Origin: Ketobacter sp.
Lineage (GTDB): Bacteria; Pseudomonadota; Gammaproteobacteria; Pseudomonadales; Ketobacteraceae
Direction: 5' to 3'
Assembly: GCF_003671495.1 (NCBI RefSeq)
Contig: NZ_RCHN01000032.1
Coordinates: forward strand, 1 to 64,000
Length of the DNA: 64,000 bases
Below the pieces are notes generated by a model, which was given only the letters and a program-made list of their open reading frames with translations, had not been told where the DNA came from and searched no databases. Of the stretch, positions 46,183 through 64,000 are shown in pieces; within the stretch, counting starts at the first letter, position 1; the number at the start of each line of letters is the position of its first letter. Made by a program: the position numbers and the translations under genes.

Positions 46183-46223
46183 CCGCGGGCTGTAAACAGG
46201 TTGTTGCCATCCCCATAAAAACG

Positions 46224-46252
46224 CAAGGCCGCATTCGTGCGGCCTTGTTGAT
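46224..46252. terminator. Strong bidirectional-type terminator
   Basis: CAAGGCCGCA-TTCG-TGCGGCCTTG is a perfect 10-bp stem with a stable tetraloop, between converging dctP and the thioesterase gene. On the minus strand it is followed by GCGTTTTT, on the plus strand by TTGATT, so it serves the thioesterase best and dctP partly. Confidence 0.88.
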
Positions 46253-46270
46253 TGCGGTGGCGAACAGACC

Positions 46271-46690: not shown

Positions 46691-46723
46691 GTTCTTCCTG
46701 TTATTGGGGAAAGTGGTCGGTCT

Positions 46724-48767: not shown

Positions 48768-48801
48768 TTGTAATATAATTGTCACACGCTGCCCCTATAG
48801 T
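48768..48801 (+). promoter_or_regulatory. Pho box and PhoB-dependent promoter of pstS
   Basis: TTGTAAT-ATAA-TTGTCAC (48768-48785) has two 7-base half-sites at the 11-base period of a PhoB Pho box; the second half-site is near consensus, the first weaker. A TATAGT box (48796-48801) follows 10 bases later, the spacing used when PhoB replaces the -35 box. It lies about 70 bases upstream of pstS. Confidence 0.75.
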
Positions 48802-48869: not shown

Positions 48870-49868
48870 ATGAATTTCAAGAAATTAGTTGCTTCTGTTG
48901 CAATGACGGCCAGTGCTGCCCTGATTGCAACCGGTGCTCAGGCTGAAGCCAAAGTCGATCCTAAACTGCCTGCCTACAGCAAGGTGGGTGGCGTTTCCGG
49001 TAACATCTCCAGCGTTGGTTCCGATACTCTGGCTAACCTGATGACGTTCTGGGCGGAAGAGTTTAAAAAGCAGTATCCCAACGTGGCCGTGCAGATCCAG
49101 GCCGCCGGTTCCTCCACAGCGCCGCCGGCTCTGACTGAAGGCACTTCCAACCTGGGCCCCATGAGCCGCAAGATGAAGGACAAGGAAATCGAAGCCTTCG
49201 AGAAGAAATTCGGTTACAAGCCCACCGCGATCCCGGTTGCCATCGACGCCCTGGCGGTATTCGTGAACAAGGACAACCCGATCAAGGGCCTGGACATCGA
49301 ACAGGTTGATGCCATTTTCTCTTCCACCCGTACCTGTGGTGGCGCCAATGACATCACCAAGTGGGGTCAGGTGGGTCTGACCGGTGAGTGGGCCAACCGT
49401 GACATTCAGCTGTATGGCCGTAACTCCGTATCCGGCACCTACGGTTACTTCAAAGACGAAGCCCTGTGTAAAGGTGACTTCAAGAGCAGCGTAAACGAAC
49501 AGCCCGGTTCTGCATCTGTGGTGCAGTCTGTTGCCACTTCCCTGAACGGCGTGGGCTACTCCGGTATCGGTTACAAGACTTCCAGCGTACGCGCTCTGCC
49601 TTTGGCCAAGAAAGGCACCAAGTATGTAGAAGCGTCCCCGGAAGCGGCCCTGGACGGCTCCTATCCTCTGTCCCGTGCGCTGTATGTGTACGTGAACAAG
49701 GCGCCTGGCAAGGAACTGTCTCCTCTGGAGCGTGAGTTTGTCAAACTGATCATGTCCAAAGAAGGTCAGGAAATCGTGGTTAAGGACGGCTACATTCCGC
49801 TGCCTTCCTCCCTGGTTGCCAAGACTCTGGGCAAGTTGGGCATCAAGTCCGAAATCGCCGCAAAATAA
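48870..49868 (+). CDS. pstS: Phosphate-binding periplasmic protein PstS
   Basis: 332 residues with signal peptide ([23 protein letters not shown]). Phosphate contacts typical of this family are visible: [41 protein letters not shown] (about residues 78-107) and [13 protein letters not shown] near 180. This is the longer PstS class found in Pseudomonas-like organisms. Captures inorganic phosphate for PstCAB. Preceded by a Pho box, and separated from pstC by a stable hairpin that probably lets pstS mRNA be more abundant than the rest of the operon. Confidence 0.95.
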
Positions 49869-49913
49869 TTCCTTCCTGATGCAGTAACAACGCAGTAAGA
49901 AGGAAAACCATGG

Positions 49914-49949
49914 ACGGGGCTACAGGCAATTTACTGTGGCCCCGTTTTG
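49914..49949 (+). terminator. Attenuator-type terminator between pstS and pstC
   Basis: ACGGGGCTACAG (49914-49925) pairs with CTGTGGCCCCGT (49934-49945), 12 bp with one T-G pair and an 8-base loop, followed by a short T-run. Located 46 bases after pstS, in the position of the partial terminators of many binding-protein genes. Confidence 0.8.
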
Positions 49950-49977
49950 TCATCAGAAAGTATTGGGTTTAGAGTCC

Positions 49978-52245
49978 ATGGAATCAACCAGCGAAGCATT
50001 GTTTGGGGTGTCCGCAGAGCGTCTGACCAAGATGCGACGGTATCGCAAGTTGAAAGACCAGGTAGCAGCCAAGGCCATCAGCGCCGGTGGCGTGGGGGTG
50101 ATTTTCGCCATCTGTCTGATCTTTTTTTACCTGCTCTATGAAGTGTTGCCGCTCTTCTTGCCGGCCTCCATGGAGGAACGCAGCAGCCTGACCCACTATC
50201 AGGTGGAAGACCCTTACTTTACCGTGTTGGAAGAGCAGGGCCAGGTGGCACTGGCGGTGGATAAAGTGCGTGGCCCGGTGTTCTATAACGCCCGTAGCGG
50301 CGAGCTGGTGGAACAGCCGCAGTTGCCGGTGGATCAGCCGATCACTGCGTTTTCCAAGGATGCGCCGGGCACCCGTTCTTTTGCCCTGGGCTTTGCTGAC
50401 GGCAGTGTTCTGATTCAAAAACCCAGTTACCACATTGAATACGGCGCCACCACCCAGGATAAAACCGTGGTGCCCAGCATCACCTACCCGCTGGGTGAGG
50501 AGCCCATCAGCGTGCTGGAAGGTGAGGCGGTGGCCCACCTGGCCTATCGTGAGTCCGGTGATCGCGTGCGGATCGTTGCCGCCAACGCCGCCGGCGAACT
50601 GTTCATGAAAGATTTTGCCAAAACCGAAAGTTTCCTCTCCGATGAAGTGGAGCTGGAGGAAATCGACCGGGTGCAGCTGCCCTCGGCGTCGGGTACATTG
50701 AATAAAGTATTGTTGAGCCTGGATCAGCGCTGGCTGTTCCTGGTGGAAAACCAGCGGCGGGTGGAAGTGATGGACCTGCGCAATCCGGTGGCGGATATGC
50801 GGGTGGACATCGCCGAAGTGGTGAGTGGGGATACCCGCATCACCGTCAGCGATTTTCTGCTGGGTGGCTTCTCCCTGTTGCTGGCGGATACCCAAGGGGT
50901 CATCAGTCAGTGGTTCGTCACCTATAACGAAGCCAATGCGCCGCACCTGGTGAAGGTGCGATCCCTGACCCTGGAGGAAGGCACTCCCATCACTACCCTG
51001 CAAACCGAGCACCGTCGCAAAGGGTTCATTGCCGGTGACGCTGCGGGCAACGTTGGCCTGTTCAACACCACCGCCGAGCGGGAGGTGAAGGACGAAAAAA
51101 TTTCCGCTGAGCCGATCCGCTGGATTGCCATGTCACCCCGTGGTGACTCGGTGCTGTTTAAAGCCCAGCAGGAAGCCCCACGCAATTTCTATATCCATAA
51201 CGAGCACCCGGAAGTGTCCTGGCACTCCATGTGGAACAAGGTGTGGTACGAGCGTTATGAGGAGCCCACGTTCACCTGGCAGAGCTCGTCCGCCAGCAAC
51301 GATTTTGAACCCAAGTTCAGCCTGATGCCGCTCACCTTCGGCACCATGAAAGCTGCCTTCTATGCCATGCTGGTGGCGGTGCCCCTGGCCATTTGCGGCG
51401 CGATCTATACCGCCTATTTCATGGCACCGTCACTGCGCACCAAGGTCAAGCCCACCATCGAGCTGATGGAAGCCATGCCCACGGTAATCCTGGGCTTTCT
51501 GGCGGGGTTGTGGCTTGCCCCCCTGGTGGAGGCGCACCTGGCGGGGGTAACCAGTATCCTGGTGCTGACGCCGATCTTTATTATCACGGCGGCGTTTCTC
51601 TGGTCCCGTTTGCCCCGTGAAATCAGTACCCGTGTTCCCGACGGTTATGTGCCGGTGATTCTGATTCCGGTGGTGGTGCTGGCCGGCGCCCTCTCCATGT
51701 GGCTCAGCGATCCCATCGAAATGGCGTTCTTCAACGGCAGCATGCGGGATTGGGTATCCCATGACCTGGGTATCGATTTTGACCAGCGCAACTCCCTGGT
51801 GGTGGGACTGGCCATGGGCTTTGCGGTGATCCCCACCATTTTTTCCATCACGGAAGACGCGATCTTTGCGGTGCCCAAAGGGCTCACCCAGGGTTCCCTG
51901 GCGCTGGGCGCCACGCCCTGGCAAACCCTGGTGCGGGTAGTGATGCCCACCGCCAGTCCGGGTATCTTCTCAGCCCTGATGATCGGCCTGGGCCGGGCTG
52001 TGGGTGAAACCATGATTGTGCTGATGGCCACCGGTAACACGCCGATCATGGACATGAATATTTTCGAAGGTCTGCGCACTCTATCCGCCAATATCGCGGT
52101 GGAAATGCCGGAGGCAGAGGTGGACAGCACCCACTTCCGCATTCTGTTCCTGTCGGGTCTGGTGTTGTTTATCTTCACCTTTATGGTCAACACCACCGCA
52201 GAGGTTGTGCGTCAACGTCTGCGTGAAAAATACGGCTCGCTGTAG
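49978..52245 (+). CDS. pstC: Phosphate ABC transporter permease PstC with large N-terminal extension
   Basis: 755 residues from the ATG at 49978, more than double the 300-residue E. coli PstC. A membrane helix at about 40-60 (GGVGVIFAICLIFFYLLYEVLPLF) is followed by about 370 residues of beta-rich, probably periplasmic sequence resembling a WD/propeller-like repeat region (VALAVDKVRGPVFYNARSGE; KVLLSLDQRWLFLVENQRRVEVMD). The permease core starts near 450 (LTFGTMKAAFYAMLVAVPLAICGAIYTAYF) and contains the EAA loop [27 protein letters not shown]. Such long PstC proteins are known in pseudomonads. The function of the extension is not established. Confidence 0.93.
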   Translation: MESTSEALFGVSAERLTKMRRYRKLKDQVAAKAISAGGVGVIFAICLIFFYLLYEVLPLFLPASMEERSSLTHYQVEDPYFTVLEEQGQVALAVDKVRGPVFYNARSGELVEQPQLPVDQPITAFSKDAPGTRSFALGFADGSVLIQKPSYHIEYGATTQDKTVVPSITYPLGEEPISVLEGEAVAHLAYRESGDRVRIVAANAAGELFMKDFAKTESFLSDEVELEEIDRVQLPSASGTLNKVLLSLDQRWLFLVENQRRVEVMDLRNPVADMRVDIAEVVSGDTRITVSDFLLGGFSLLLADTQGVISQWFVTYNEANAPHLVKVRSLTLEEGTPITTLQTEHRRKGFIAGDAAGNVGLFNTTAEREVKDEKISAEPIRWIAMSPRGDSVLFKAQQEAPRNFYIHNEHPEVSWHSMWNKVWYERYEEPTFTWQSSSASNDFEPKFSLMPLTFGTMKAAFYAMLVAVPLAICGAIYTAYFMAPSLRTKVKPTIELMEAMPTVILGFLAGLWLAPLVEAHLAGVTSILVLTPIFIITAAFLWSRLPREISTRVPDGYVPVILIPVVVLAGALSMWLSDPIEMAFFNGSMRDWVSHDLGIDFDQRNSLVVGLAMGFAVIPTIFSITEDAIFAVPKGLTQGSLALGATPWQTLVRVVMPTASPGIFSALMIGLGRAVGETMIVLMATGNTPIMDMNIFEGLRTLSANIAVEMPEAEVDSTHFRILFLSGLVLFIFTFMVNTTAEVVRQRLREKYGSL

Positions 52246-52259
52246 TTGGGGGAAACACG

Positions 52260-53921
52260 ATGAACTCGATCAAACTTTGGTTCCGAAAAGGGGATCCCTG
52301 GGTCTGGCTGAATGGCGGCGCCGTGGCCATCAGCGTGGTCATGGTGGTGGGTCTGCTGCTGTTGGTGGCGTTCCGGGGCTTATCCCATTTCTGGCCCCAT
52401 ACCATCATCGAAGGCACCTACCATGAAGCGGACGGTTCCACCTACACCCTGATCGGTGAGGTGGCGGATGAAGAATGGGTGGCGGCCTCCCGGGTGCGGG
52501 GCACTGGGGTGGCCATTCCGGAAGACGTGAAAGTCGTGCAGCGCATGCTGATCAAGACCGGTAACCGGGATGTCACCGGCCTCGACTTCCGCTGGTTGGT
52601 GGCGGACAAGCTCACCAATGTGTCCACTCCGGAAGAGTTGATGGTGGTGGAGCGGCGTGAGTGGGGTAATTTTTATGGCTACCTCACCGCCATGAAGGAG
52701 AACGGCCAGGTGGTTGCGACCGGTGCTGAGGCGTTGCCGGCGCTGGATGCCCGACTGGAGCGGGCATTGGATCTGTCGGATGCCATTCACGATATTGAGA
52801 ACAAAGATATCGGAGCCATCAACTACCAGGTGGAACGCTTACGCCTGAAGGAGCGGCGCCTGGAATTGGAAGGTGAACTTACGGATGCCGTCAGGATGGA
52901 GCTGGACGCCGAACGCGCCGCCCTGGACGCCGAATACCAGACCTTGAAAGCGGATCTGGATCAGCTGAATGTGGAGATCAGCCGTGACAGCCTGGTGGCC
53001 ACCACCATGAGCGGCGTGGAAAAGGAAATCCCACTAAAACTCGTGGTGCAGTACAAGCAGCCCAATAAAATGTCCCTGTTCGAAAAGATCGGCGATTATT
53101 TCCATCAACTGTGGCTGTTCCTGTCGGATGATCCGCGGGAGGCCAACACCGAAGGTGGTGTGTTCCCGGCGATTTTCGGTACCGTGTTGATGGTGATTCT
53201 GATGTCGGTGATCGTGACGCCGTTTGGCGTGATTGCCGCGGTCTACCTGCGGGAATACGCCAAGCAGGGCCCCCTTACCCGTACCATCCGGGTGGCGGTG
53301 AACAACCTGGCCGGGGTGCCTTCCATTGTGTATGGCGTGTTTGGCCTGGGCTTCTTTGTGTATTTTCTGGGGGGCAGCCTGGATGCGCTGTTTTATCCCG
53401 AGGCGGCGCCTTCGCCGGTGTTCGGTACGCCGGGCCTGATGTGGGCGTCCATTACCCTGGCGCTGTTGACCCTGCCGGTGGTGATCGTGGCCACGGAAGA
53501 AGGTTTGACCCGCATTCCCAAATCCCTGCGCGAGGGTTCTCTGGCCCTGGGGGCCACCAAGTTTGAAACCATCACCAAGGTGATCCTGCCCATGTCCAGC
53601 CCGGCCATGATGACCGGCCTGATTCTGGCCATCGCCCGGGCGGCCGGTGAAGTGGCGCCCCTGATGTTGGTGGGGGTGGTGAAACTGGCGCCGTCGCTGC
53701 CTCTGGATGGCAACTTCCCCTACCTGCACTTGGAACGCAAATTCATGCACCTCGGGTTCCACATCTATGATGTGGGATTCCAGAGCCCCAACGTCGAGGC
53801 GGCGCGACCGCTCGTCTACGCCACCGCGGCCCTGCTGGTGCTGGTGATCGTAATACTGAACCTGACGGCCATCATGATCCGCAACCGGTTGCGTGAGAAG
53901 TACCGGTCACTGGAGAATTGA
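52260..53921 (+). CDS. pstA: Phosphate ABC transporter permease PstA with N-terminal extension
   Basis: 553 residues versus about 300 in E. coli. One helix at about 18-40 ([21 protein letters not shown]), then a roughly 250-residue periplasmic insert that ends in a charged coiled coil ([21 protein letters not shown], about 180-240), then the permease core from about 300 ([34 protein letters not shown]) with EAA loop [27 protein letters not shown]. Forms the channel with PstC. Starts 14 bases after pstC; pstB begins one base after its stop. Confidence 0.94.
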
Positions 53922-53922
53922 T

Positions 53923-54798
53923 ATGAGTGAAACGAATTCAGATGTTAGAAAAGGTGCAACCATGACTGCAGCGGAAAGACCCCGGCCCAAAGTCGGACAG
54001 AAAGTGGTGGATATGGATTTTGTTCCTCACAAGCTTGAGGAAGAAGAAGTCTGTCTGGAAGTGAAAAATTTCCGCCTCTACTACGGTGACAAGCGTGCGC
54101 TTCATGATATTAATATGAAGATCCCGAAAAAGCGCGTGACGGCATTCATCGGCCCCAGCGGTTGTGGTAAATCCACCCTTCTGCGCTGCTTCAATCGCAT
54201 GAACGATCTGGTGGACATCTGCCGTACCGAAGGCGAAATCCTGTTTGACGGCAATGACATTTTTCATCGTACCGTGGACGTCACCGATCTGCGGCGACGG
54301 GTGGGCATGGTGTTCCAGAAGCCCAATCCGTTCCCCAAAACCATCTATGAAAACGTGGCCTATGGCCTGCGTATCCAGGGCATCAACAAGAAGCGGATTC
54401 TGGATGAGCGGGTGGAATGGGCCCTGAAAGGCGCGGCCCTGTGGGATGAGGTGAAGGACCGGCTGCAGGACAACGCTCTGGGCATGTCCGGTGGTCAGCA
54501 GCAGCGTCTGGTGATCGCCCGTACCATCGCGGTGGAGCCGGAAGTGTTGCTGCTGGATGAACCCTGCTCCGCGCTGGACCCGATCTCCACCCTCAAGGTG
54601 GAAGAGCTGATCAATGAGCTGAAAGATCGTTACACCATCGTCATTGTTACCCACAACATGCAGCAGGCGGCGCGGGTTTCCGACTATACTGCCTTTATGT
54701 ACCTGGGTGACCTGATCGAGTACAAGGATACGGATACCCTGTTCACCAATCCGGAACAGAAACAGACTGAAGACTACATCACCGGCCGTTACGGCTGA
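53923..54798 (+). CDS. pstB: Phosphate ABC transporter ATP-binding protein PstB
   Basis: 291 residues from the ATG at 53923 with GGAG seven bases upstream. ABC motifs: Walker [23 protein letters not shown] (about residue 72), Q-loop [19 protein letters not shown], signature [35 protein letters not shown] with Walker B, and switch His in [19 protein letters not shown]. The PstB-specific NRMNDL and NPFPKTI strings make the assignment firm. An extra 45-residue N-terminal tail is present. Powers phosphate import and, with PhoU, signals to PhoR. Confidence 0.97.
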
Positions 54799-54820
54799 TG
54801 CACGCAGAGGAAGAACGTGG

Positions 54821-55552
54821 ATGAGCAGCGAAGAATTTACCCATCATATTTCCAAACAGTTCAATGCTGACCTGGAAGAGGTAAGAAGCCACATTCTTGC
54901 GATGGGCGGCATGGTCGAAAAACAGGTGGTGGATGCGGTACAGGCGCTGGTGGAAGGCGACAGCGGACTGGCCAGCGAAGTGATCAGCAACGAAAAGCAG
55001 GTCAACGGCATGGAGCGGCGCATTGATGAAGAGTGCACCCGCATCATCGCCCTGCGCCAGCCGGCGGCCAGCGATCTGCGTTTGCTGGTGGCGGCCACCA
55101 AAGCCAACACCGACCTGGAGCGCATCGGCGACGAAGCCAACAAAATCGCCAAGATGGCCATTCGCCTGTCAGAGGACGGCGCCATTCCCCGCGGATACAT
55201 CGAGATCCGCCACATCGGCAACCATGTGAATGCCATGTTGCGGCAGTCGCTGGATGCCTTTGCCCGCTTCGACGTGGAGCAGGCGGTGGACGTGGTGCGG
55301 GAGGATAAATCCGTCGATGTTGAATATGAGTCCGCCATGCGCCTGCTGGTGACCTTCATGATGGAAGACCCCCGCTACATCAAACGGGCGCTGAACGTAA
55401 TGTGGAGCCTGCGGGCCCTGGAGCGCATCGGCGACCACGCCCGCAACATTGCCGAGCAGGTGATTTATCTGGTGAAGGGTAAGGATATTCGCCACCTGCC
55501 GTTGTCCACCCTGGATGACAATGACCTGGTGAACGACGGCGAAGGGGTTTAA
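54821..55552 (+). CDS. phoU: Phosphate signalling protein PhoU
   Basis: 243 residues, two PhoU three-helix bundles with the expected metal-binding motifs ANTDLERIGDEANKIAKMAI (about residues 90-110) and SLRALERIGDHARNIAEQVIYL (about 195-215). PhoU holds the Pst transporter and PhoR in the phosphate-replete state and limits phosphate uptake and polyphosphate accumulation. It ends the pst operon, 22 bases after pstB, and converges with the CofD-like gene of the next locus. AGAGGAAG precedes the ATG. Confidence 0.96.
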   Translation: MSSEEFTHHISKQFNADLEEVRSHILAMGGMVEKQVVDAVQALVEGDSGLASEVISNEKQVNGMERRIDEECTRIIALRQPAASDLRLLVAATKANTDLERIGDEANKIAKMAIRLSEDGAIPRGYIEIRHIGNHVNAMLRQSLDAFARFDVEQAVDVVREDKSVDVEYESAMRLLVTFMMEDPRYIKRALNVMWSLRALERIGDHARNIAEQVIYLVKGKDIRHLPLSTLDDNDLVNDGEGV

Positions 55553-55589
55553 CGCGCCCCGTCAGAATCAGCTCCGCCCGCTGTTCCGT

Positions 55590-56843
55590 TCAGGTAAACG
55601 ACAGTAGGGCGGACACCAGTAACTGCTCATCGTAATACGGCGCGCTGCGGTCACTCACCAGGTGGGTATCCACCAGAGTGATGCCCAGGCTGGTGAGAAG
55701 CTCAACCGGTATGTGCCAGGGATACTCGCCGCGGTTACTGTCGATCAGCACAAAATTCAGGAAATGCCCATTGCTCTTCACGGCAGGACTGTCCGCTTTC
55801 AGTTGTTCCAGTAACCGCAGTATAACCTGCTCAAAGCTCATGCCCACCTGCTCGGGATCATGGCCCAGGTTGGGGATGTAGATTTTGGGGCAATCGTTGT
55901 TAGCGATCGCCGTGCCGACCCCTTCCGGCAACAGATTGGCCATCAGGCTGCTGTAGAAGCTGCCAGGTGGATAACAGATCAGATCCGCATTCTGGATCAG
56001 TTTGCGATTTTTTTTACGCAGCTGGGCCTGGCCTGGTTGATACTCACTGGGATGTGCATTCAGAAAAATATCCTGGATGGGCGAGGTGATGGGGGCCACT
56101 TCCTTGCCCGATAAAAGATGTTGGCCGATGAGGCAGCTGCCGTCTTCCAGATGCGCCCCCAGATGCAGGTCCCGATTGACGATGGCGCGCACCGTGCCCA
56201 ATACGTTGACCAGCTTGCTGAACAGGAAAATGATCGGGTCCAGATGCTGGTGGTTGTTGAGGTAACCGCCTGCCAGAATCAGGTTGCCGATGCTGGCGCC
56301 GCGCAGATTGAATTGCGCCGGCAGGGCTTCGATGCAGAACCCCAATTGGTTGCGAATCAGCTGACGCATGGGGTTGGGAATGTTGGCGATCAGGTCAGCC
56401 CGGCCGCTGGCAATGTCCTGCAGCAGCTCCCACAATTGCTTCTGGGGTTTGTCGGTGGGCAGGCGAAAATTAAACAGCTGGTATACGTCCGGGTGGCCGA
56501 GAAGGGATTCATCGGCCAGGGCCAGCAACCGGTTGCGCAGATCGCCGATGGCGGGCATGGCGAAGGCGCGCCGCAACTCCGCTGAGCTGCCGCCGGAGTC
56601 GAACGGCGTAACCAGATGAATGGAGTTGTGGGTGTAATCCTTGAGTGTGCGACACAGGCTGTTGATGGCTGAGCCACCGCTGAAAAACAATACCTTGGGC
56701 CCCAGCTCAGGGTTCTTCCGGTAGCGGCTGATCCGCAGGGGATCAGGAATATCAACAGTGCGGGTGATCCGGATTTTAGTCAAAACGCGAGGTTCCCAAG
56801 TAAACAGGTTCTGGTGGCCACGATACGGACTTTCCCGCGGCAC
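55590..56843 (-). CDS. CofD/YvcK-like protein of the GAK locus
   Basis: 417 residues from a GTG at 56843; a TTG at 56783 gives the likelier N-terminus TKIRITRTVDIPDPLRISRYR, so the first 20 residues are doubtful. CofD/YvcK motifs are LFFSGGSAINSLCRTL (about 53-68), TPFDSGGSSAELRRAFAMPAIGDLRNRLLAL (about 79-110) and CYPPGSFYSSLMANLLPEGV near 290. CofD transfers phospholactate to a deazaflavin precursor; YvcK relatives bind UDP-sugars and govern cell wall and gluconeogenesis. This matches what I know as the CofD-related member of the GAK system. Divergent from the PhoU-kinase gene by 142 bases. Confidence 0.85.
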   Translation of the reverse strand: MPRESPYRGHQNLFTWEPRVLTKIRITRTVDIPDPLRISRYRKNPELGPKVLFFSGGSAINSLCRTLKDYTHNSIHLVTPFDSGGSSAELRRAFAMPAIGDLRNRLLALADESLLGHPDVYQLFNFRLPTDKPQKQLWELLQDIASGRADLIANIPNPMRQLIRNQLGFCIEALPAQFNLRGASIGNLILAGGYLNNHQHLDPIIFLFSKLVNVLGTVRAIVNRDLHLGAHLEDGSCLIGQHLLSGKEVAPITSPIQDIFLNAHPSEYQPGQAQLRKKNRKLIQNADLICYPPGSFYSSLMANLLPEGVGTAIANNDCPKIYIPNLGHDPEQVGMSFEQVILRLLEQLKADSPAVKSNGHFLNFVLIDSNRGEYPWHIPVELLTSLGITLVDTHLVSDRSAPYYDEQLLVSALLSFT

Positions 56844-56985
56844 TGTGTCACAATCGGAACCGTAATGTCGCAGGCATCGTGGTTATGTTAACCCTGATTC
56901 CGCGAATAAGAAATGCAGTGCGTGTTGTCCGTGTCCGTCCGGAGGCGGTCAGCGCCAGATCCGTTTAACGACCTGGAACCTGTTC

Positions 56986-58641
56986 ATGACCTTGGCACTC
57001 CCGAAAAGTGTGGGCGAAAATCTCAGGTTTCTGTGCGTGGAGGTGGAGTCACAGCTCACCGCGTTGCAGGAATATCTGGCGGCTCCCACCTCGGTCAACG
57101 CCCGCCGCATCGTCGATCGCAGCGGCTATTCGTTCAATCTGAAAACCCGCATTCACACCAGTTGTATCAACACGTTGACCAGCCGCAAACAGAATGAATT
57201 GCAGCGTCTGCAGTTGCGCTGTGCCGAATTCATTGCAACGGACCTGGAGCGCATCACCGAGCTGGCCCGGGAATGCGTCAAACAGATGAGCTTTGTGCGG
57301 CAGCCGGAACTGTTGGAACCGCAGCGCTTTCAGCCAGCGCTGGAGCGCATCGCCCACGGGGTCAATCAGGTTTATGCCGCCATCGAGGCCCGGGATACCC
57401 AGTTGGCGCTGGACATCGGCAAACTGGAAAACCGGGTGGAAAAAGAGTACGCCCGCCTCTACCGACACTATATCGGCGCGCTTAAAAGCCAGCATCAAAC
57501 CGAGGATCTGGCGCAGATACTGTTCGTTGCCCACAGTGTGCAGCAGATGGGGGATGCGCTGCGCCATATCAGTGAATCCATCATCTCCGCCAACCTGGGC
57601 CAGCCGGTGAATTTCGAGCGTTATTTCTCGCTGCAGTCATTGGTGCAGACGTTTGAATCCCAGGATGAAAACATCTCCATCGAGCCCCTGGCGGAAACCC
57701 GCTCCGGCAGTGCCATTTCCGGGGTGCGCAGCAAAGCGGGCCAGGATTATCTGGCCATTTACAAGGACGGCATCAAGCGCAAAGTAAAAGAAGAGCGGGA
57801 AGGTGTACAAAGCTGGCACCATGTGTACCCCGGCCTGGCGCCCAAAATTCTTTCCTACAAAAAACGGGGTCAGTCGGCGGCATTGCTGATTGAACATCTG
57901 CCGGGTTACACCTTCGAGCAGGTGCTGCTGAATGAACCCCAGACCATGGTGGATGAGGCGCTCAAGCAGCTGATGAAAACCCTGCGTTCAGTCTGGAAGG
58001 GCACGCGTAATCAGGAAGCGGTTACCGCTGATTTTATGGGGCAATTGGAACGTCGTATTGGCGAGGTTTATAAAATTCATCCGGAGTTTCAACGTGGCAG
58101 GGTCAACCTGTGCGGTTGCAGCAAGCCAGGCTTCGATGGCCTGGTGCAGCAGGCGGCCGCCCTGGAGAAACATCTGCAACCACCGTTTTCGGTGTACATC
58201 CACGGGGATTTTAATGTGGACAACATCATCTATGACCCTTTGGATCAGCGCATCAATTTTATCGATTTGCACCGTTCTCGTTACCAGGATTATGTGCAGG
58301 ATGTGTCGGTGTTCATGGTCTCCAATTACCGCCTGCAGATTCTGGATCAGCCCTTGCGTCGACGCATTCTGAACCTGGCCATCGAGTTTTACCGCGCTGC
58401 CCGGCGGTTTGCACGGAAAGCCGGTGATGATTCCTTTGAACTGCGTCTGGCCCTGGGGCTGGCCCGCTCGTTTGTGACCTCCACCCGCTTTATCCTGGAC
58501 AAGGCGCTGGCCCAGAATATGTTCCTGCGGGCCACCTACCTGATTGAATGGGTGCTGGAGTGTGAGGCCGGCGTGAATCGCGCAGCCGGGGTTGTGCACC
58601 GTGCGCCCAAGCTTCCCATTGAGGAGATATTCCGTGACTGA
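56986..58641 (+). CDS. PhoU-like domain fused to an APH/choline-kinase-type phosphotransferase
   Basis: 551 residues in two parts. Residues about 1-220 are all-helical and PhoU-like, with LAQILFVAHSVQQMGDALRHISESIISANLG (about 178-208) standing where PhoU has LERIGDHARNIAE. Residues about 235-540 form a protein-kinase-like phosphotransferase: ATP-binding strands with DYLAIYKDGIKRKVKEERE, the catalytic loop VYIHGDFNVDNIIYD (about 404-418, HGDxxxxN) and the metal Asp in INFIDLHRSRYQDYVQDVSVF. Substrate unknown; the PhoU part suggests it binds a phosphate-linked metal cluster or a membrane partner. First of six plus-strand genes of the locus. Confidence 0.85.
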   Translation: MTLALPKSVGENLRFLCVEVESQLTALQEYLAAPTSVNARRIVDRSGYSFNLKTRIHTSCINTLTSRKQNELQRLQLRCAEFIATDLERITELARECVKQMSFVRQPELLEPQRFQPALERIAHGVNQVYAAIEARDTQLALDIGKLENRVEKEYARLYRHYIGALKSQHQTEDLAQILFVAHSVQQMGDALRHISESIISANLGQPVNFERYFSLQSLVQTFESQDENISIEPLAETRSGSAISGVRSKAGQDYLAIYKDGIKRKVKEEREGVQSWHHVYPGLAPKILSYKKRGQSAALLIEHLPGYTFEQVLLNEPQTMVDEALKQLMKTLRSVWKGTRNQEAVTADFMGQLERRIGEVYKIHPEFQRGRVNLCGCSKPGFDGLVQQAAALEKHLQPPFSVYIHGDFNVDNIIYDPLDQRINFIDLHRSRYQDYVQDVSVFMVSNYRLQILDQPLRRRILNLAIEFYRAARRFARKAGDDSFELRLALGLARSFVTSTRFILDKALAQNMFLRATYLIEWVLECEAGVNRAAGVVHRAPKLPIEEIFRD

Positions 58642-59533
58642 ACGTAAAATCGGGGTGGTGGGCATTCCCGGCAAGTGGTCCACTGAGGTGCTGGCCGATG
58701 CGCTGGCGGTGCACACCGGATTTCGGCTGGTGATTGATATGGAGGAGGTGGCGCTGGATCTGGCCACCTCCGAGCTGTGGTACCAGGGTCATAACCTGTG
58801 TGAACTGGATGCCCTGGTGGTGAAAAAAATCAGCGCCGAATACAACCCCGGCACCCTGGACCGACTGGAATTGCTGCGGGTGGCGGAACAACAGGGCGTG
58901 CGGGTATTCAGCCCGGCCCTGAACATGTTGCGCCTGATTGATCGCCTGAGTTGCACGGTGACCCTGCGCAATGCCGGTATTCCCATGCCGGACACTCTGG
59001 TGACGGAAAGTGTGGCAGCCGCCGTGCAGGCGGTCATGGAATACGGCGCGGCGGTGTTCAAGCCGCTGTATTCCACCAAAGCCAGGGGCATGTGTGTGAT
59101 CGAGGCGAACGCCGGCGAGGCGGAAGTGCGACGGCGGGTGGTAGAATTCCAGCAACAGAACCCCATGTTGTATCTGCAACGCAAACTGAACTTGCCGGGG
59201 CGTGATCTGGGTATGGTGTTTCTGGGGGGGCAATACCTGGGGACCTATGCCCGGGTCTCGCAAAGTGACACCTGGAACACCACCATCCACAGCGGCGGGC
59301 GCTACGCAGCCTTTACTCCCCCGGCGGCGTGGGTGGAGTTGGCGCGGCGGGCCCAGGCGCCCTTTGGTCTGGACTTCACCACGGTGGACCTGGCAGAAAC
59401 CGACACTGGCCCCATCGTGTTTGAGGTGTCTGCGTTCGGTGGTTTTCGCGGTGCGCTGGAGGGGGCCGGGGTGGAAGCCGCCACCCTCTATGCAGAGTAT
59501 GTGATCAAACAGCTGGTGAACGATGAAAACTGA
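58634..59533 (+). CDS. ATP-grasp enzyme of the GAK locus
   Basis: 299 residues from a GTG at 58634, chosen because GAGGAG lies seven bases upstream and the resulting start, MTERKIGVVGIPGKWSTEVLADAL, is a normal pre-ATP-grasp beginning. It overlaps the previous stop by 8 bp. ATP-grasp features are IPMPDTLVTESVAAAVQAVMEYGAAVFKPLYSTKARGM (about 115-155, with the ATP-binding Lys), LYLQRKLNLPGRDLGMVFLGG and the metal loop IVFEVSAFGGFRGALEGAG near 263-282. RimK-like proportions suggest ligation of an amino acid or small acid to a carboxylate through an acyl phosphate. Substrate unknown. Overlaps the next gene by 11 bp. Confidence 0.88.
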   Translation: MTERKIGVVGIPGKWSTEVLADALAVHTGFRLVIDMEEVALDLATSELWYQGHNLCELDALVVKKISAEYNPGTLDRLELLRVAEQQGVRVFSPALNMLRLIDRLSCTVTLRNAGIPMPDTLVTESVAAAVQAVMEYGAAVFKPLYSTKARGMCVIEANAGEAEVRRRVVEFQQQNPMLYLQRKLNLPGRDLGMVFLGGQYLGTYARVSQSDTWNTTIHSGGRYAAFTPPAAWVELARRAQAPFGLDFTTVDLAETDTGPIVFEVSAFGGFRGALEGAGVEAATLYAEYVIKQLVNDEN

Positions 59534-60692
59534 ATCAGAGTACGACACGGTGGACTGGGCGGCCACCCTCAGCGCGGGGTATCCGCTGCTGGAGCAGCGC
59601 CTCAACCTGCAGATGGGCGCCTGCCGCCTGTGCGTGCAATCCAATTCCGCTGAGTTGCTGGCGCGCTTGCAGCACTACTTTCGCCATTTGGTGGTCAGCA
59701 CGTCCTCTGTCCAATCAACGCTCATGGCGGAATCCACACTCATGCTGACCGCCATTCAGCGCCCGGCGCCTGAACTCAATGTGAGTTTCACAGACTGGCG
59801 GCGGGAGACCGGTAAATCCGGGCGCAAGGATGCTTATTACGACGTTCCCGGTGGGCGGCTGGTGCACAAGGTGCGTACCGGCATGGTGTTTTTACAGTGC
59901 GCGCAGTCACCCCTGGCCGCGGGGGATTGCCTGGCCAACGACAACCAGGTGATCAATTTTATCAATGCCCAGTTCATGACCTGGTTACAACAACGGGGTT
60001 GGCTGATCTGCCATGCCGCGGCGGTGGAATATCAGGGCCGATCCATCGCCATCGCGGCGTTCTCCGGTGGCGGCAAGTCCACCTCCATGTTGCGCCTGCT
60101 GGATCTGGCGGGCACCCGTTTTCTCACCAACGACCGTTTGTTTATTCTGCGAGAGCCAGACAGCCCGACTGGGCAGCAGCACGGACAACAGGAACCCGGA
60201 CAACAGGAACACGGCGTCAAAGTGGCCGGTGTGCCCAAGTTGCCCCGCATCAACCCCGGCACCATTGTGAACAATCCGGTACTGCAGTCCATCCTGTCAC
60301 CACAGCGGCGCGAGCAATTGCAATCCCTGCCCGCGGCGGAGCTGTGGGAGCTGGAAGAAAAATACGATGTGGACGTGCTGGCATTATACGGTGACGACCG
60401 CATCCAACATCTTGCCGAGCTGGATTGCTTTCTGCTTCTGAACTGGCAGCACAATGGCACGCAGACCGTTATCCAGGCGGTGGACCTGGATCAGCGCCGG
60501 GATCTGCTGCCGGCCCTGATGAAAGCGCCGGGCCCGTTTTACCAACAGTCGAACGGGCAGTTCCACTCGGACCAGACTCCGCTGGATGCACAGCGCTATG
60601 TGGATGTGCTGGCCGGAGCCGCGGTGTACGAAGTCAGTGGCGGGGTCGATTTCGATGCCCTGGTCCACTGGTGTCGGCAGCGGTTGGAGTAA
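59523..60692 (+). CDS. HprK-related kinase (HprK-related kinase B type)
   Basis: 389 residues. An N-terminal domain of about 150 residues ends at INFINAQFMTWLQQRGWLICHAAAVEYQGRSIAIAAFSGGGKSTSMLRLL, whose last part is a HprK-style P-loop (about residues 178-187; the first Gly of the Walker A is Ala). FLTNDRLFILRE follows with the catalytic-loop Asp, and GVPKLPRINPGTIVNN resembles the HprK P+loop region. HprK is a serine kinase/phosphorylase of HPr; this relative lacks HPr in context. A low-complexity stretch GQQHGQQEPGQQEHG (about 217-231) comes from DNA repeats. Overlaps the ATP-grasp gene by 11 bp; the next gene starts 3 bases after its stop. Confidence 0.88.
   Translation: MKTESEYDTVDWAATLSAGYPLLEQRLNLQMGACRLCVQSNSAELLARLQHYFRHLVVSTSSVQSTLMAESTLMLTAIQRPAPELNVSFTDWRRETGKSGRKDAYYDVPGGRLVHKVRTGMVFLQCAQSPLAAGDCLANDNQVINFINAQFMTWLQQRGWLICHAAAVEYQGRSIAIAAFSGGGKSTSMLRLLDLAGTRFLTNDRLFILREPDSPTGQQHGQQEPGQQEHGVKVAGVPKLPRINPGTIVNNPVLQSILSPQRREQLQSLPAAELWELEEKYDVDVLALYGDDRIQHLAELDCFLLLNWQHNGTQTVIQAVDLDQRRDLLPALMKAPGPFYQQSNGQFHSDQTPLDAQRYVDVLAGAAVYEVSGGVDFDALVHWCRQRLE
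60171..60210 (+). repeat. In-frame 15-bp repeats in the HprK-related kinase gene
   Basis: CGGACAACAGGAAC occurs at 60182-60195 and 60197-60210, a 15-base period, preceded by a degenerate copy at 60171-60181. The reading frame is kept, giving a Gly-Gln-Gln-Glu/His repeat between the P-loop and the downstream motif. Confidence 0.75.
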
Positions 60693-60695
60693 GGC

Positions 60696-61421
60696 ATGGC
60701 CCGCGTGATCGCCGCTTTGATTCGGCACGGGGACTATCATCAGTTGCCCCAGACACCCAGTGCTCACCAGCCATTCCCGCTCACGGAGGCGGGCAGACAG
60801 CAGGCCCTCGCTGCCGCCACTTCGTTGTGGGACAGGTTGCAGCGGGAGCGTTTGAATTTACACCCTGAGCTGGATTGTTCACGCCTGCTGCGGGCCTGGC
60901 AAACCGCCGACATCATGCGCCAGTGGCTCATCAAGCAATATTCGGAATCGCAGCCCTTCCGTGGTCACCCCATCCGCTTGCATCAGACCGAGGCCCTGGC
61001 CGAGCGCGGCCTGGGCAGTGCGGCAAACCTGACGGTGTCTGCGATCGAAGCAGTGTTGCAGCAGGATCCCCGCTTCAGCCCACCGCCGGCGGACTGGAAG
61101 TCCAACAGTCATTATTGCCTGCCGTTGCAGGGGGCGGAATCCCTGATGCAGGCCGGGGAGCGGGTGGCCTATCACCTGGGCAGCAGAATGGAACAACTGG
61201 CGGGCCAGGTGACGGTGGATACCTTACAGGTGTTCGTGGGCCATGGCGCCGCGTTTCGCCATGGTGCCCACCTGTTGGGTGTGCTGCCGTTCGAACAGAT
61301 TGCCCGGCTGTCCATGTATCACGGGGTCCCCGTGTATCTGGAATACCATGGCGATGGCCGTTGGTCTCATGTGGGTGGGAATTGGAAAGTGCGATCCGCG
61401 GCGGAAGGCCATCACGATTAA
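60696..61421 (+). CDS. Histidine-phosphatase superfamily protein
   Basis: 241 residues. The catalytic RHG is in ARVIAALIRHGDYHQLP near residue 10, the second Arg is in SRLLRAWQTADIM (about 63-74), the acidic residue in LAERGLGSAANL, and the second catalytic His in VFVGHGAAFRHGAHLLG (about 181-197). This is the phosphoglycerate mutase/SixA-like branch 1 fold, with a phospho-His intermediate. Substrate unknown. Three bases separate it from the HprK-like kinase gene, so it may reverse that kinase's product. The 107 bases after it contain a separate promoter candidate. Confidence 0.88.
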   Translation: MARVIAALIRHGDYHQLPQTPSAHQPFPLTEAGRQQALAAATSLWDRLQRERLNLHPELDCSRLLRAWQTADIMRQWLIKQYSESQPFRGHPIRLHQTEALAERGLGSAANLTVSAIEAVLQQDPRFSPPPADWKSNSHYCLPLQGAESLMQAGERVAYHLGSRMEQLAGQVTVDTLQVFVGHGAAFRHGAHLLGVLPFEQIARLSMYHGVPVYLEYHGDGRWSHVGGNWKVRSAAEGHHD

Positions 61422-61456
61422 GCTGAGCGCAAAGGGGAGTGGATTTGCCAAACCGT

Positions 61457-61486
61457 CATGATTGTGCCATGAATGTGCAATATAAC
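61457..61486 (+). promoter_or_regulatory. Tandem 11-bp repeat and -10 box within the GAK locus
   Basis: CATGATTGTGC and CATGAATGTGC stand head to tail (61457-61467, 61468-61478), one mismatch, exactly one helical turn apart, with TATAAC (61481-61486) next to it. The 11-base period recalls a Pho box but the sequence does not fit its TGTCA core. It would drive the last two genes of the locus separately. Confidence 0.4.
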
Positions 61487-61528
61487 GTTAGGCAGTAATG
61501 GTTGTTGGACACCTGAGTGGGCTCAGAC

Positions 61529-62845
61529 ATGCTGCAGAATCCGATTGAACTGAAGTTACCGCCAAACCACGAATTTGGCTGGCCTGGATTACCAACCGAA
61601 GCCATGGAATGGACCTTGAATCCGGGCCAGCGGGGTTCGCGCCAACCCCTGGAATCTGTGGTGAAGCGCAGCACCCATCTCAGCCCCTGGCAATGGCCAC
61701 AGCAACCGGTTCTGTTTTTTGCAGATCTGCATGCGGATGCCGAGGCCTTTCAGGCTTCGCTGCTGGCCTCCGGCGGGGTGCGGATGTCGAAGCTGCATCC
61801 CGCGGAATTTGAACTTACGGCAGCAGGGCAGCGCAGCACCTTTGTTATCGGTGGTGATTGCCTGGACAAGGGGCCGAGCAACCTCAAGCTGCTGCAAAGC
61901 ATTCGCCGCCTGATGCACACCGGCGCTCGGGTGATCCTGTTGGCAGGCAACCATGACGTGCGTTTGCTGATGGGCATTAAGGCGTTGGACCTGGCACCGG
62001 ATCCCGCCACCGAGCATTTGTTTCTGCGCATGGGGCCCAAGGTGGTGCCCTTGTTGAAGGAAGTCTTCGACGCGTATCTGACCGACTGCGATCTGCAGCA
62101 CATTCCCTCCAGCAAGGTATGCCGGCAGCGGCTCTATCCATCCGCAGAGTGGTTTCGCGCCTTCCCCAGGCTGACCGCAAAAGAACTGCCACCGAAAGCC
62201 ATCGCCAAGGAAATCAAACGCATGTGCCGCAAGGTGGAATGCTTTGAAGCCGTGTGCCGTGATGCCGGGCTCGATCTGCGCCAGGTGTATGCCACCGCCA
62301 TGAAATGCCGGGAATTATTTCTGCAGCCGGGGGGGGAATACGCCTGGTTCTTTGACAGCATGCAGTTGTTGCATCGGGAAGGTTCCTTCCTGTTCTTGCA
62401 CGCCGGTGTGGACGACCGCTTTGTGCGCCTGCTTACCCACCGCGATGAAGCCTATTTGAATGACCTGTATCGACGCAAGATCCGCACGGATCTGTTTGGG
62501 TTTTATTACGGGCCATTGGCCAACACCATGCGCACCAAGTACCGGGATGTGGACCTGCCCTTGACCGACGACGGGGTGGAAATGGCGGGCCGGTATGGCG
62601 TGCATGTGGTAGTGCACGGGCATCGTAATCGTACCTGCGGTCAGTGCATTGCCTTGCGCCAGGGCATGATCCACATCGAAGGGGATATCACACTGGATCG
62701 CAACTCCCGACGCAAAGAAGGCTTGCCGGGTGTCGGCATGGGCGTCACTATTATCAGCCCAGAGGGCCGCGTCATTGGTATCAGTAACGATTTTCCCTAC
62801 GCCAAGGTTTTTGAGCCGCAGCGTTATCTTCAAGCACCGGAATAG
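61529..62845 (+). CDS. Metallophosphoesterase
   Basis: 438 residues from the ATG at 61529 (a GTG at 61517 is in frame). Calcineurin-like motifs in order: LFFADLHADAEAF (DxH, about residue 65), VIGGDCLDKGPSN (GDxxDKG, about 108), ILLAGNHDVRLL (GNHD, about 137), FLHAGVDDRF (about 290) and VVVHGHRNRTCGQ (GHxx, about 367). A Lys/Arg-rich helical insert sits between GNHD and the later motifs. The layout is similar to large Ser/Thr-phosphatase-like or Ap4A-hydrolase-like proteins. Substrate unknown; second phosphatase of the locus. The amphi-Trp gene begins 2 bases after its stop. Confidence 0.88.
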   Translation: MLQNPIELKLPPNHEFGWPGLPTEAMEWTLNPGQRGSRQPLESVVKRSTHLSPWQWPQQPVLFFADLHADAEAFQASLLASGGVRMSKLHPAEFELTAAGQRSTFVIGGDCLDKGPSNLKLLQSIRRLMHTGARVILLAGNHDVRLLMGIKALDLAPDPATEHLFLRMGPKVVPLLKEVFDAYLTDCDLQHIPSSKVCRQRLYPSAEWFRAFPRLTAKELPPKAIAKEIKRMCRKVECFEAVCRDAGLDLRQVYATAMKCRELFLQPGGEYAWFFDSMQLLHREGSFLFLHAGVDDRFVRLLTHRDEAYLNDLYRRKIRTDLFGFYYGPLANTMRTKYRDVDLPLTDDGVEMAGRYGVHVVVHGHRNRTCGQCIALRQGMIHIEGDITLDRNSRRKEGLPGVGMGVTIISPEGRVIGISNDFPYAKVFEPQRYLQAPE

Positions 62846-62847
62846 GC

Positions 62848-63123
62848 ATGGCACAGATCAAGAACTCGTTTAAACACGAATCCCTGCAGGATCAGAAAAG
62901 CATTCAGGATATTCTCAAGGCCGTTACCAAGGGCATTGCCAAAGGTGAGTTGGTGTTCAGCGATGATGAAGGCGAAATCGTGCTGCAGCCGGAGGGGTTG
63001 CTGGCGCTCAAGGTGAGTGCCCGTCAGGAAGACGGGCAGAACCGCCTGGACATTCGCATCCGCTGGCAGTCCGAGGAGCAGGAGATCCAACGCAAGCCCC
63101 TGGCCGTGAACAAACGCAAATGA
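62848..63123 (+). CDS. Small amphi-Trp domain protein
   Basis: 91 residues, no signal peptide. It fits the small domain named for an amphipathic strand ending in a conserved Trp: FKHESLQDQKSIQDILKAVTKGIAKGELVFSD (8-39), EIVLQPEGLLALKVSARQ (43-60) and RLDIRIRWQSEEQEI (66-80). Amphi-Trp proteins are known from haloarchaea and bacteria, where they occur with ATP-grasp and HprK-related genes. The C-terminus ends in basic residues. Given its size and place at the end of the unit, it could be the carrier or substrate modified by the enzymes encoded ahead. Function unproven. Confidence 0.85.
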   Translation: MAQIKNSFKHESLQDQKSIQDILKAVTKGIAKGELVFSDDEGEIVLQPEGLLALKVSARQEDGQNRLDIRIRWQSEEQEIQRKPLAVNKRK

Positions 63124-63138: not shown

Positions 63139-64000
63139 TCAGAACTGCACCCCCATCTGCAATGCACCACCGGCGTTGTTCTCACTGAACTGCGCCGCCA
63201 GATCAACGTACACGGCGATGATGTTGAAACCCACACCGGCGGTGAATACATGGTCGTCGTTATCCGCCAGGTTGGTGCGCACCCCACCGCGCAAGCGCAC
63301 GATGCTGGCCACGTCCCATTCCACACCGGCCCCCAGGAACTGAGTGTCTTCTCCCAGAAAATAGGGTTGGTTGCGGGTCAGATCCAGATCCGCGGCCAGG
63401 GTCAGGCCCAGGGGCGCATCCCAGGCCAGGCCCAAACGGGCCTGGGTTTCCACATCAAACTCCGCGGCCTCACCGGTATTGGGTGAGACTTTGGTGCGGT
63501 ACTGGTTGGCGATCAGGTTCTTCACCACCAGGCCCAGGGTCACGCGATCATCCAGAAAGGTGGTGGCGAGACCCAGGTCCAGGTTGAAATCGTCGTCGGT
63601 GTTTTCACTGGCTTCCAGTTCATCCGCCAGGTCGTAGTGTTCATTTTCCAGATCCTGCACGTTGGGCACAGCATAGTAGCTGGTGATGCTCTGCAGCTTG
63701 GGCGTGATGCCCAGGCTCACGTCACGGCCGAAGATCATCACTTCCTTCGAGAGGGACACACCCACTTCCGTCACGGTGACGCCGGCCACCAGCACATCGG
63801 AGGTCAGGTCGTCGGTGGGGTCATGAATACTGCCGTCCCCCAGGTTGACGATGGGTACATCGTCGCAGCCGGCCTGATTGCGCACCGGATCGGCAGCGGC
63901 CAGGGCCAATTCCGCCTGGGAGTTCACCGATTCAAAAAAGGTCAGGTAATCGTCCAGCAGTTGGTTGTCGCATGCTGACACCCGGGGGGAGGTTTCCAGG
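63139..64000 (-). CDS. TraF-like outer-membrane barrel protein (5' end outside window)
   Basis: The frame is open from the right window edge (reading LETSPRVSACDNQLLDD) to the stop at 63139, about 287 residues seen; the GTG at 63981 is only an internal candidate start. Strands such as VTLGLVVKNLIANQYRTKV, ARLGLAWDAPLGLTLAADLDLTRNQ, EWDVASIVRLRGGVRTNL and FTAGVGFNIIAVYVDLAAQFSENNAGGALQMGVQF match the conjugal-transfer TraF-like family (PF13729), predicted outer-membrane barrels with no proven transfer role, ending in Phe. Converges on the amphi-Trp gene with a 15-base gap. Confidence 0.82.
   Translation of the reverse strand, partial: LETSPRVSACDNQLLDDYLTFFESVNSQAELALAAADPVRNQAGCDDVPIVNLGDGSIHDPTDDLTSDVLVAGVTVTEVGVSLSKEVMIFGRDVSLGITPKLQSITSYYAVPNVQDLENEHYDLADELEASENTDDDFNLDLGLATTFLDDRVTLGLVVKNLIANQYRTKVSPNTGEAAEFDVETQARLGLAWDAPLGLTLAADLDLTRNQPYFLGEDTQFLGAGVEWDVASIVRLRGGVRTNLADNDDHVFTAGVGFNIIAVYVDLAAQFSENNAGGALQMGVQF

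Follow-up and report, generated by a model that had tools for sequence, protein, structure and literature searches.

The GAK locus and its annotation

The stretch of DNA analysed here, hereafter the window, comprises 64,000 nucleotides of a Ketobacter sp. contig (NZ_RCHN01000032.1, positions 1 to 64,000), and a check of its open reading frames (ORFs) showed that seven intact genes at 55590-63123 make up a GAK locus (Table 1). GAK is a system already named in NCBI annotation, of which the window locus is a member and the core of which is redrawn below. The window passes the cut-offs of all four NCBIfam models for the system (TIGR04354-TIGR04357). The families assigned to the seven genes in an original prediction, which was made from the letters of this DNA and included a PhoU-APH fusion, HprK-related kinase B (HprK-B) and two phosphatases, agree with the NCBIfam and Pfam scores. 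The PhoU, APH, His_Phos_1 and Metallophos domains all lie above their Pfam gathering scores, and HprK-B had no Pfam match at E 0.1. A search of 5.39 million open-licence PMC papers, a set which does not cover preprints, with GAK terms, amphi-Trp, HprK-related kinase and TIGR04355-TIGR04357 returned no paper.

The start of the ATP-grasp gene that fits its relatives is the GTG at 58634, which gives an 8 bp overlap with the end of the PhoU-APH gene (58641). The ATP-grasp and HprK-B genes overlap by 11 bp, while 3 bases separate HprK-B from the histidine phosphatase gene and 2 bases the metallophosphoesterase gene from that for amphi-Trp. These four junctions are as originally predicted; the 95-base gap between the two phosphatase genes (61422-61516) had been omitted. 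A scan of positions 55400-57100 for promoters and terminators returned 4 promoter-like matches, against 0.8 expected, and no terminator-like site.

Table 1. Features of the GAK locus and of the neighbouring phosphate transporter operon (window coordinates)
Feature	Coordinates	Strand	Evidence and remarks
Pho-box-like site	48768..48785	+	Score 11.2 of 13.2; lies ~85 bases upstream of the pstS-like gene
pst-type phosphate transporter operon with phoU last	48870..55552	+	NCBIfam: PstB, PhoU; Pfam: PBP_like_2, two BPD_transp_1 proteins
GAK CofD-like protein (YvcK/GlmR and CofD relative; optional member)	55590..56843	-	TIGR04357, 539 bits vs cut-off 340; YvcK-type UPF0052 PDB relatives
Divergent intergenic region, presumed operon promoter	56844..56985		No Pho-box-like site (highest score 8.4 of 13.2)
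PhoU-like domain fused to APH-type kinase (PhoU-APH)	56986..58641	+	Pfam PhoU 43 bits, APH 38 bits
GAK ATP-grasp enzyme, RimK/LysX/MptN-like	58634..59533	+	TIGR04356, 450 bits vs 300, scored from 58592
HprK-related kinase B (HprK-B)	59523..60692	+	TIGR04355, 339 bits vs 200; predicted PEPCK-like over whole length
Histidine phosphatase, branch 1	60696..61421	+	Pfam His_Phos_1 49 bits
Metallophosphoesterase	61517..62845 (alternative start ATG 61529)	+	Pfam Metallophos 34 bits
Small amphi-Trp protein with GAK-only FxHxSLQD motif	62848..63123	+	TIGR04354, 71 bits vs 31

A six-gene core with optional partners

GAK loci occur in many, often marine, bacteria. Their gene content was determined in two samples: 398 genomes of the same phylum as the window, and 93 loci consisting of L003-L015 (the GAK genomes of the 398-genome sample minus the window's own, plus a contig-edge fragment from genome G033) and 80 named contig loci. 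As the latter were the best 80 of 496 relatives, close relatives are over-represented among the loci. Two further loci, L001 and L002, were excluded from the locus counts, the Pho-box scans and the distance correlations. Full flanks were available for 52 of the 93 loci (the remaining 41 had <6 kb to the left or <6.5 kb to the right of the ATP-grasp gene), and a gene was counted as present if it lay anywhere in the fetched locus, the ATP-grasp gene thus scoring 52/52 by construction. PhoU-APH and HprK-B were each present in 52/52 full-flank loci, amphi-Trp in 51/52, and the histidine phosphatase and the metallophosphoesterase in 50/52 each; L059 and L060 are without both phosphatases. The CofD-like gene was found in only 26/52, and a stand-alone Nudix gene (Nudix1) and a SixA-Nudix fusion gene in 31/52 each.

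Occurrence in the 398 genomes matched these counts. The GAK ATP-grasp was above its cut-off in 13 genomes (at E ≤ 0.001 there were 282 ATP-grasp matches, nearly all weak and at the level of RimK-like proteins), and PhoU-APH (E ≤ 1e-40) was found in exactly the same 13. HprK-B (E ≤ 1e-15) was detected in 16, namely the 13 GAK genomes, G033, G140 and G184; in the last two, which are 87% and 84% complete, respectively, the match lies near a contig start. Amphi-Trp (E ≤ 1e-4) appeared in 21 genomes, comprising 12 with GAK, G184 and 8 without GAK; there was no match in G156 or G033, the contigs of which end within the operon. CofD_GAK was present in 5 of 14 GAK genomes and lay far from the operon in two of those. 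For the other GAK genes, protein distances were correlated with the ATP-grasp distances (r 0.69-0.89), with 0/300 permutations giving values as high; taken alone, this correlation could stem from shared species history.

The recurrence of the set in the fetched loci, together with the co-occurrence of PhoU-APH, ATP-grasp and HprK-B in the 398 genomes, confirms that the association of these genes is beyond chance, and the expectation that they form one conserved unit was borne out. Given the full-locus and genome co-occurrence counts, the PhoU-kinase and the phosphatases belong to the core and CofD is optional. The GAK core is thus composed of six genes, encoding PhoU-APH, the ATP-grasp, HprK-B, the histidine phosphatase, the metallophosphoesterase and amphi-Trp, and the PhoU-APH fusion is diagnostic of the system. 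Compared with the NCBIfam definition, this core adds PhoU-APH and the two phosphatases, and it makes CofD optional. It also differs from the original prediction, in which CofD was a named core member and the PhoU-kinase and phosphatases were extras that made the window's version larger than the core. The window's version is rather a small one, without the Nudix gene and the SixA-Nudix fusion.

The usual gene order is PhoU-APH, ATP-grasp, HprK-B, SixA-Nudix where present, histidine phosphatase, metallophosphoesterase and amphi-Trp, with CofD often divergent upstream. In 12 loci the order is rearranged and the phosphatase genes directly follow that of the ATP-grasp (L024, L031, L036, L049, L051, L052, L055, L057, L063, L074, L094 and L095). 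An Exo_endo_phos-family gene is added between the metallophosphoesterase and HprK-B genes in L024 (4671-5798), L036 (12967-14109) and L055 (13267-14424), the family being confirmed by Pfam in L036 only, and L022, L024, L036, L052 and L055 carry a gene labelled Nudix-like by eye, with no Pfam match at E 0.001.

Nudix1 matches were present in 51 loci, directly before PhoU-APH in all except L058 (NUDIX 65 bits). The SixA-Nudix fusion joins a histidine phosphatase domain to a Nudix domain and is found in many loci between HprK-B and the histidine phosphatase. The closest solved chain to its first half is SixA (E 4e-14), the cut-off of the SixA model being missed (46 and 57 bits vs 74.5), and the closest to its Nudix half are human diphosphoinositol polyphosphate phosphohydrolases (DIPPs; E ~1e-6). 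The RHG motif is kept in 48 of 54 SixA-Nudix copies. A search of the window's genome for SixA-Nudix gave no match, an empty answer that, as the tool warns, shows little by itself; the Nudix1 query returned four distant Nudix-like matches there, with 34-38% identity over part of the query.

Five records of Rhodobacterales plasmids bear an annotated GAK ATP-grasp and HprK-B, therefore the operon can be plasmid-borne. In each of the three examined, the ATP-grasp and HprK-B are accompanied by both phosphatases, by amphi-Trp and by a phosphotransferase gene whose length matches; two also have CofD and one a Nudix gene. The GAK-carrying plasmids were typed as non-mobilizable.

Three loci deserve separate mention. 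In a tube-worm endosymbiont (L044:8362-14011), two matching ORFs represent each of PhoU-APH and SixA-Nudix, perhaps through frameshifts. A record titled Halobacteria archaeon (L041:1-12181) has a neighbourhood like those of the gammaproteobacterial loci L022 and L027 and is perhaps a mis-binned contig. In genome G116 (L111:3-1776) a GAK-type amphi-Trp gene lies ~9 kb away from the other operon genes, next to CHAD-like and ParA-like genes (labelled by eye and by locus probe).

Conserved residues, predicted folds and phosphate-related surroundings

The motifs expected for catalysis or metal binding in the kinases and phosphatases are conserved at 97% or more. This holds for HGDxNxDN and D427-L-H of the APH kinase, for the Walker A motif and N203-D204-R205 of HprK-B, for D70, H72, D114, N145, H146, D147, H295 and H369 of the metallophosphoesterase (73 sequences) and for the RHG motif in the histidine phosphatase. 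For this last enzyme the set was limited to 18 sequences, just 17 ORFs having passed the coverage filter. Alignments A4 and A5 comprised 36 and 30 hand-chosen locus sequences, respectively, plus that of the window; the motif-conservation sets had 82 and 84.

In profile searches of the PDB, PhoU-APH matched PhoU chains (E 1e-9) and aminoglycoside kinase chains (E 6e-5); it meets the Pfam PhoU domain score (43 bits vs 23.5) and falls below that of the full-length PhoU model TIGR02135 (50 bits vs 130). The ATP-grasp matched RimK, LysX and glutamate ligases with E-values down to 2e-18, and shares fold family and overall alignment with the RimK/MptN/LysX ligases. It differs from them in lying below the family cut-offs, the closest NCBIfam ligase being MptN (130 bits vs 350) and rimK_fam scoring 83 vs 143, and in carrying E278-V-S280 where those ligases have E-V-N. 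No PPIP5K or ITPK chain appeared at E ≤ 10, an absence from a sequence search that is not proof. The best PDB relatives of the CofD-like protein are YvcK-type UPF0052 proteins; it shares motifs with YvcK/GlmR, which binds UDP-GlcNAc and acts as a uridyltransferase, but remains below the cut-off of the YvcK model TIGR01826 (110 bits vs 196).

The fold of HprK-B is predicted to be like that of phosphoenolpyruvate carboxykinase (PEPCK) over its whole length. Its structural model (pLDDT 92, pTM 0.91) aligned with ATP-dependent PEPCK with Z 14.9 over residues 4-389 (about 300 residues, root mean square deviation 4.7-4.9), and with HprK/P, with which it shares the Walker A motif and the catalytic half, with Z 13.7 over residues 159-389 (133-138 residues, deviation 2.7-2.9). 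Even the longer HprK chains (1ko7, 1knx) aligned over 159-389 only. Identity to both families is about 10-20% over the aligned residues. The invariant residues of HprK-B are rich in K/R (12, vs 3 D/E; elsewhere 22 vs 39; p 0.003), which would fit an anionic substrate but is no proof of one. A similar excess was not found in the ATP-grasp (a set of 13 A1 sequences to which the window's own was added a second time), PhoU-APH, metallophosphoesterase or CofD proteins.

The amphi-Trp protein is predicted to consist of one helix followed by four strands (pLDDT 87). No confident solved relative was found for this fold (best Foldseek E 1.0; best VIA Z 2.2, to GnsA), which does not prove it new, and the sequence profile gave weak matches only (best E 0.012). 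The motif FxHxSLQD precedes the helix in the GAK copies, F8 being present in 57/57 sequences, H10 in 56/57 and S12 in 55/57, and is absent in all 8 non-GAK copies of the 398-genome sample. The 57 sequences are 56 of the 66 distinct GAK copies plus that of the window; FxHxS is visible by eye in all of the other 10, which had ambiguous starts, were near-copies or, in one case, were truncated. S12 is missing from L003 and L004, and H10 also from L003; HprK-B is kept in both loci. Position 15, D in most copies and S or N in the others, immediately precedes the helix and resembles a helix cap, so that the motif may have a partly structural role. The C-terminus is variable among the 57 sequences. 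RimK modifies S6, and LysX modifies LysW, at the C-terminus; a modification of amphi-Trp in either style was rejected because of this variability. Three non-GAK amphi-Trp genes have neighbours worth recording: one adjoins a Ppx/GppA phosphatase gene (L112:1453-3084), a further phosphate link of the amphi-Trp family, and two directly follow a gene labelled GpsA-like by eye (L114:351-1752 and L118:228-1749).

The surroundings of the GAK genes suggest that the system is linked to phosphate supply. In the window, a pst-phoU operon is followed, 37 bases on, by the 3′ end of the CofD-like gene. When scored with a Pho-box consensus, the site upstream of pst (Table 1) was the sole pattern match in the window (0.14 expected; at least one in 13/100 shuffles). 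Among the 93 loci, Na/Pi cotransporter genes were found near 13, CHAD genes near 9, in at least five arrangements, and PPK1 genes near 4, one of each being checked with Pfam. Gene density predicts 0.26, 0.19 and 0.19, respectively, in the ~0.72 Mb of flank, or 0.54, 0.38 and 0.38 over the whole 1.47 Mb fetched; these densities (28, 20 and about 20 genes in 76.6 Mb) come from 20 GAK genomes chosen by hand, which include loci with those neighbours. Pho-box-like sites scoring at least 11.5 preceded the GAK operons of 9/82 relatives vs 7/277 other upstream regions (p 0.003; shuffles 1/1640), three of the seven being an intergenic stretch already counted for a GAK operon, read in the other direction; at 10.5 or above, the figures were 13/82 vs 15/277 (p 0.004; shuffles 20/1640).

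Other features near the locus were recorded. The permease genes of the pst operon are unusually large (769 and 553 aa), TRAP transporter genes lie upstream of pst at 45079-48651 (DctP, with DctM/DctQ on the other strand), and a gene for a TraF_2-family outer-membrane-like protein at 63139-63999 is convergent with the GAK operon and extends past the window edge.

Possible functions of the GAK genes

The explanation we favour, with a probability of roughly 0.4, is that GAK is a six-gene pathway linked to phosphate supply which phosphorylates an anionic, probably small, compound and later dephosphorylates it, with amphi-Trp as partner or target. It draws on the core gene set and its matching occurrence in genomes, the correlated protein distances, the conserved motifs, the PEPCK-like model and K/R-rich invariant residues of HprK-B, the phosphate-related neighbours, the Pho-box-like sites, the DIPP-like Nudix half of the fusion and the adjoining pst-phoU operon of the window. 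Through its PhoU domain, the fused kinase would respond to the state of a phosphate transporter. PhoU-APH and the PEPCK/HprK-fold kinase, assigned by family, would phosphorylate the compound, and the RimK-type ATP-grasp would join or activate it. The two phosphatases, plus the Nudix enzymes where present, would remove phosphate or pyrophosphate, and amphi-Trp would bind the product or be acted on via FxHxSLQD. The pathway would in this way yield either a phosphate reserve or a reversible signal of phosphate status. In many genomes, CofD-like, Nudix and SixA-Nudix genes accompany the six.

Several observations weigh against this explanation. The similarity of the ATP-grasp is to amino acid ligases and not to kinases; the HprK-B sequence profile found neither PEPCK nor HprK in the PDB at E ≤ 10, only P-loop matches; and the K/R excess, seen in one of the five families tested, would equally fit PEPCK-type substrates. 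With regard to phosphate, the majority of loci have no phosphate neighbour at all, and the neighbour counts are not independent because those loci include close relatives. The adjacency to pst is not general either, PhoU-like genes being near three other loci only, ~10 kb off. Before 69 of the 82 operons the best Pho-box score was under 10.5, several of the nine operons with a site of at least 11.5 are related pairs, and the window's own GAK promoter has no such site (Table 1).

The main rival is the idea, already present in the original prediction, that the target is a protein. HprK-B and/or the other enzymes would phosphorylate or conjugate amphi-Trp, probably at H10 or S12, by analogy with the action of HprK on HPr, and the phosphatases would reverse it. 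The near-constant presence of amphi-Trp in full loci, the near-invariance of FxHxSLQD in GAK copies alone and the alignment of the catalytic half of HprK-B with HprK/P all speak for such a target. However, HprK-B is kept in the two loci where the putative acceptor residues are missing, its N-terminal part is predicted to be PEPCK-like, and the D15 position suggests a partly structural motif. The exceptions in L003 and L004, together with the variable C-terminus, argue against one fixed modification site. Amphi-Trp may be a carrier or target, with evidence on both sides, and we regard modification of this protein as rather unlikely, though as the strongest rival.

More unlikely is that GAK makes and erases a new, non-inositol phosphate-status messenger, a small molecule carrying phosphate and perhaps pyrophosphate, which a PhoU-gated kinase, the ATP-grasp and the PEPCK-fold kinase would write, the phosphatases and Nudix enzymes erase, and amphi-Trp read. 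If true, bacteria would have a counterpart to the phosphate signalling that eukaryotes carry out with inositol pyrophosphates.

That GAK assists in turning over polyphosphate or dinucleoside polyphosphates, with Nudix, SixA-Nudix and the metallophosphoesterase cutting phosphoanhydrides and the remaining proteins regulating this, seems improbable. The CHAD and PPK1 neighbours would fit it, as CHAD binds polyphosphate and Ddp1-type Nudix enzymes and Ppn2 are named as polyphosphatases in the account given in PMC6537752, and the fission yeast Nudix enzyme Aps1 is described as cutting polyphosphate (PMC11323792). A similar grouping of CHAD protein, polyphosphate kinase and Nudix hydrolase makes up the PhoP-controlled ppk-pptA-SLI_4382 operon of Streptomyces, which, in the description given, is without GAK core genes (PMC8003754). 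However, the Nudix genes are absent from many of the full loci, CHAD and PPK1 are near few GAK loci, and such turnover has no need of the constant two kinases and ATP-grasp.

Constitutive biosynthesis of a cofactor or osmolyte that bears phosphate and an amino acid tail, in which CofD and the ATP-grasp would act as in F420 or methanopterin synthesis, also seems improbable. MptN is the closest ligase to the ATP-grasp, half of the full loci have a CofD-like partner, and the YvcK relative GlmR is reported as a uridyltransferase (PMC10128056). Against this, 9 of 14 GAK genomes are without CofD, the scores are far under the MptN, RimK and YvcK cut-offs, and two to three phosphatases plus Nudix enzymes would point to turnover, not to synthesis alone.

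A literal inositol pyrophosphate pathway, with PPIP5K- and DIPP-like enzymes, is very improbable. GAK resembles the eukaryotic enzymes (PPIP5K, DIPP/Aps1) in having an ATP-grasp, a histidine phosphatase, often a DIPP-like Nudix domain and a phosphate context; PPIP5K, as described, joins an ATP-grasp kinase to a histidine phosphatase, in a system that includes Nudix enzymes (PMC11836120, PMC11323792). It was nevertheless set aside because the profile search with the ATP-grasp, which is ligase-like, gave no PPIP5K or ITPK at E ≤ 10 and inositol-1-phosphate synthase is mostly missing: Ino1 (PF07994) was not found in 31 of 34 GAK genomes, the window's own included, and was present in 3/34 (0/14 with quality data), imported inositol being a way round. 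As for other roles, a PADLOC search for defence systems over 7 proteins gave two chance-level matches only (Cas2, E 0.019; BrxB, E 0.036). One scan of viral contigs, for which the window's ATP-grasp was the sole query, yielded no confirmed relative, and in PHROGs 4 of 6 proteins had matches, all of them weak and at the domain level.

Overall, the identification of a GAK locus, its standing as a conserved unit and the retention of its catalytic motifs hold, while the view of the PhoU-kinase and phosphatases as additions was wrong. What is new here is the phosphate-related neighbourhood, the predicted PEPCK-like fold of HprK-B over its whole length and the GAK-only FxHxSLQD motif of amphi-Trp. 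The redefined core with its optional CofD, the diagnostic PhoU-kinase fusion and the pointer to phosphate turn an unexplained annotation into one that can be tested. If the favoured explanation is right, many bacteria would carry a hitherto unknown phosphate-responsive pathway.

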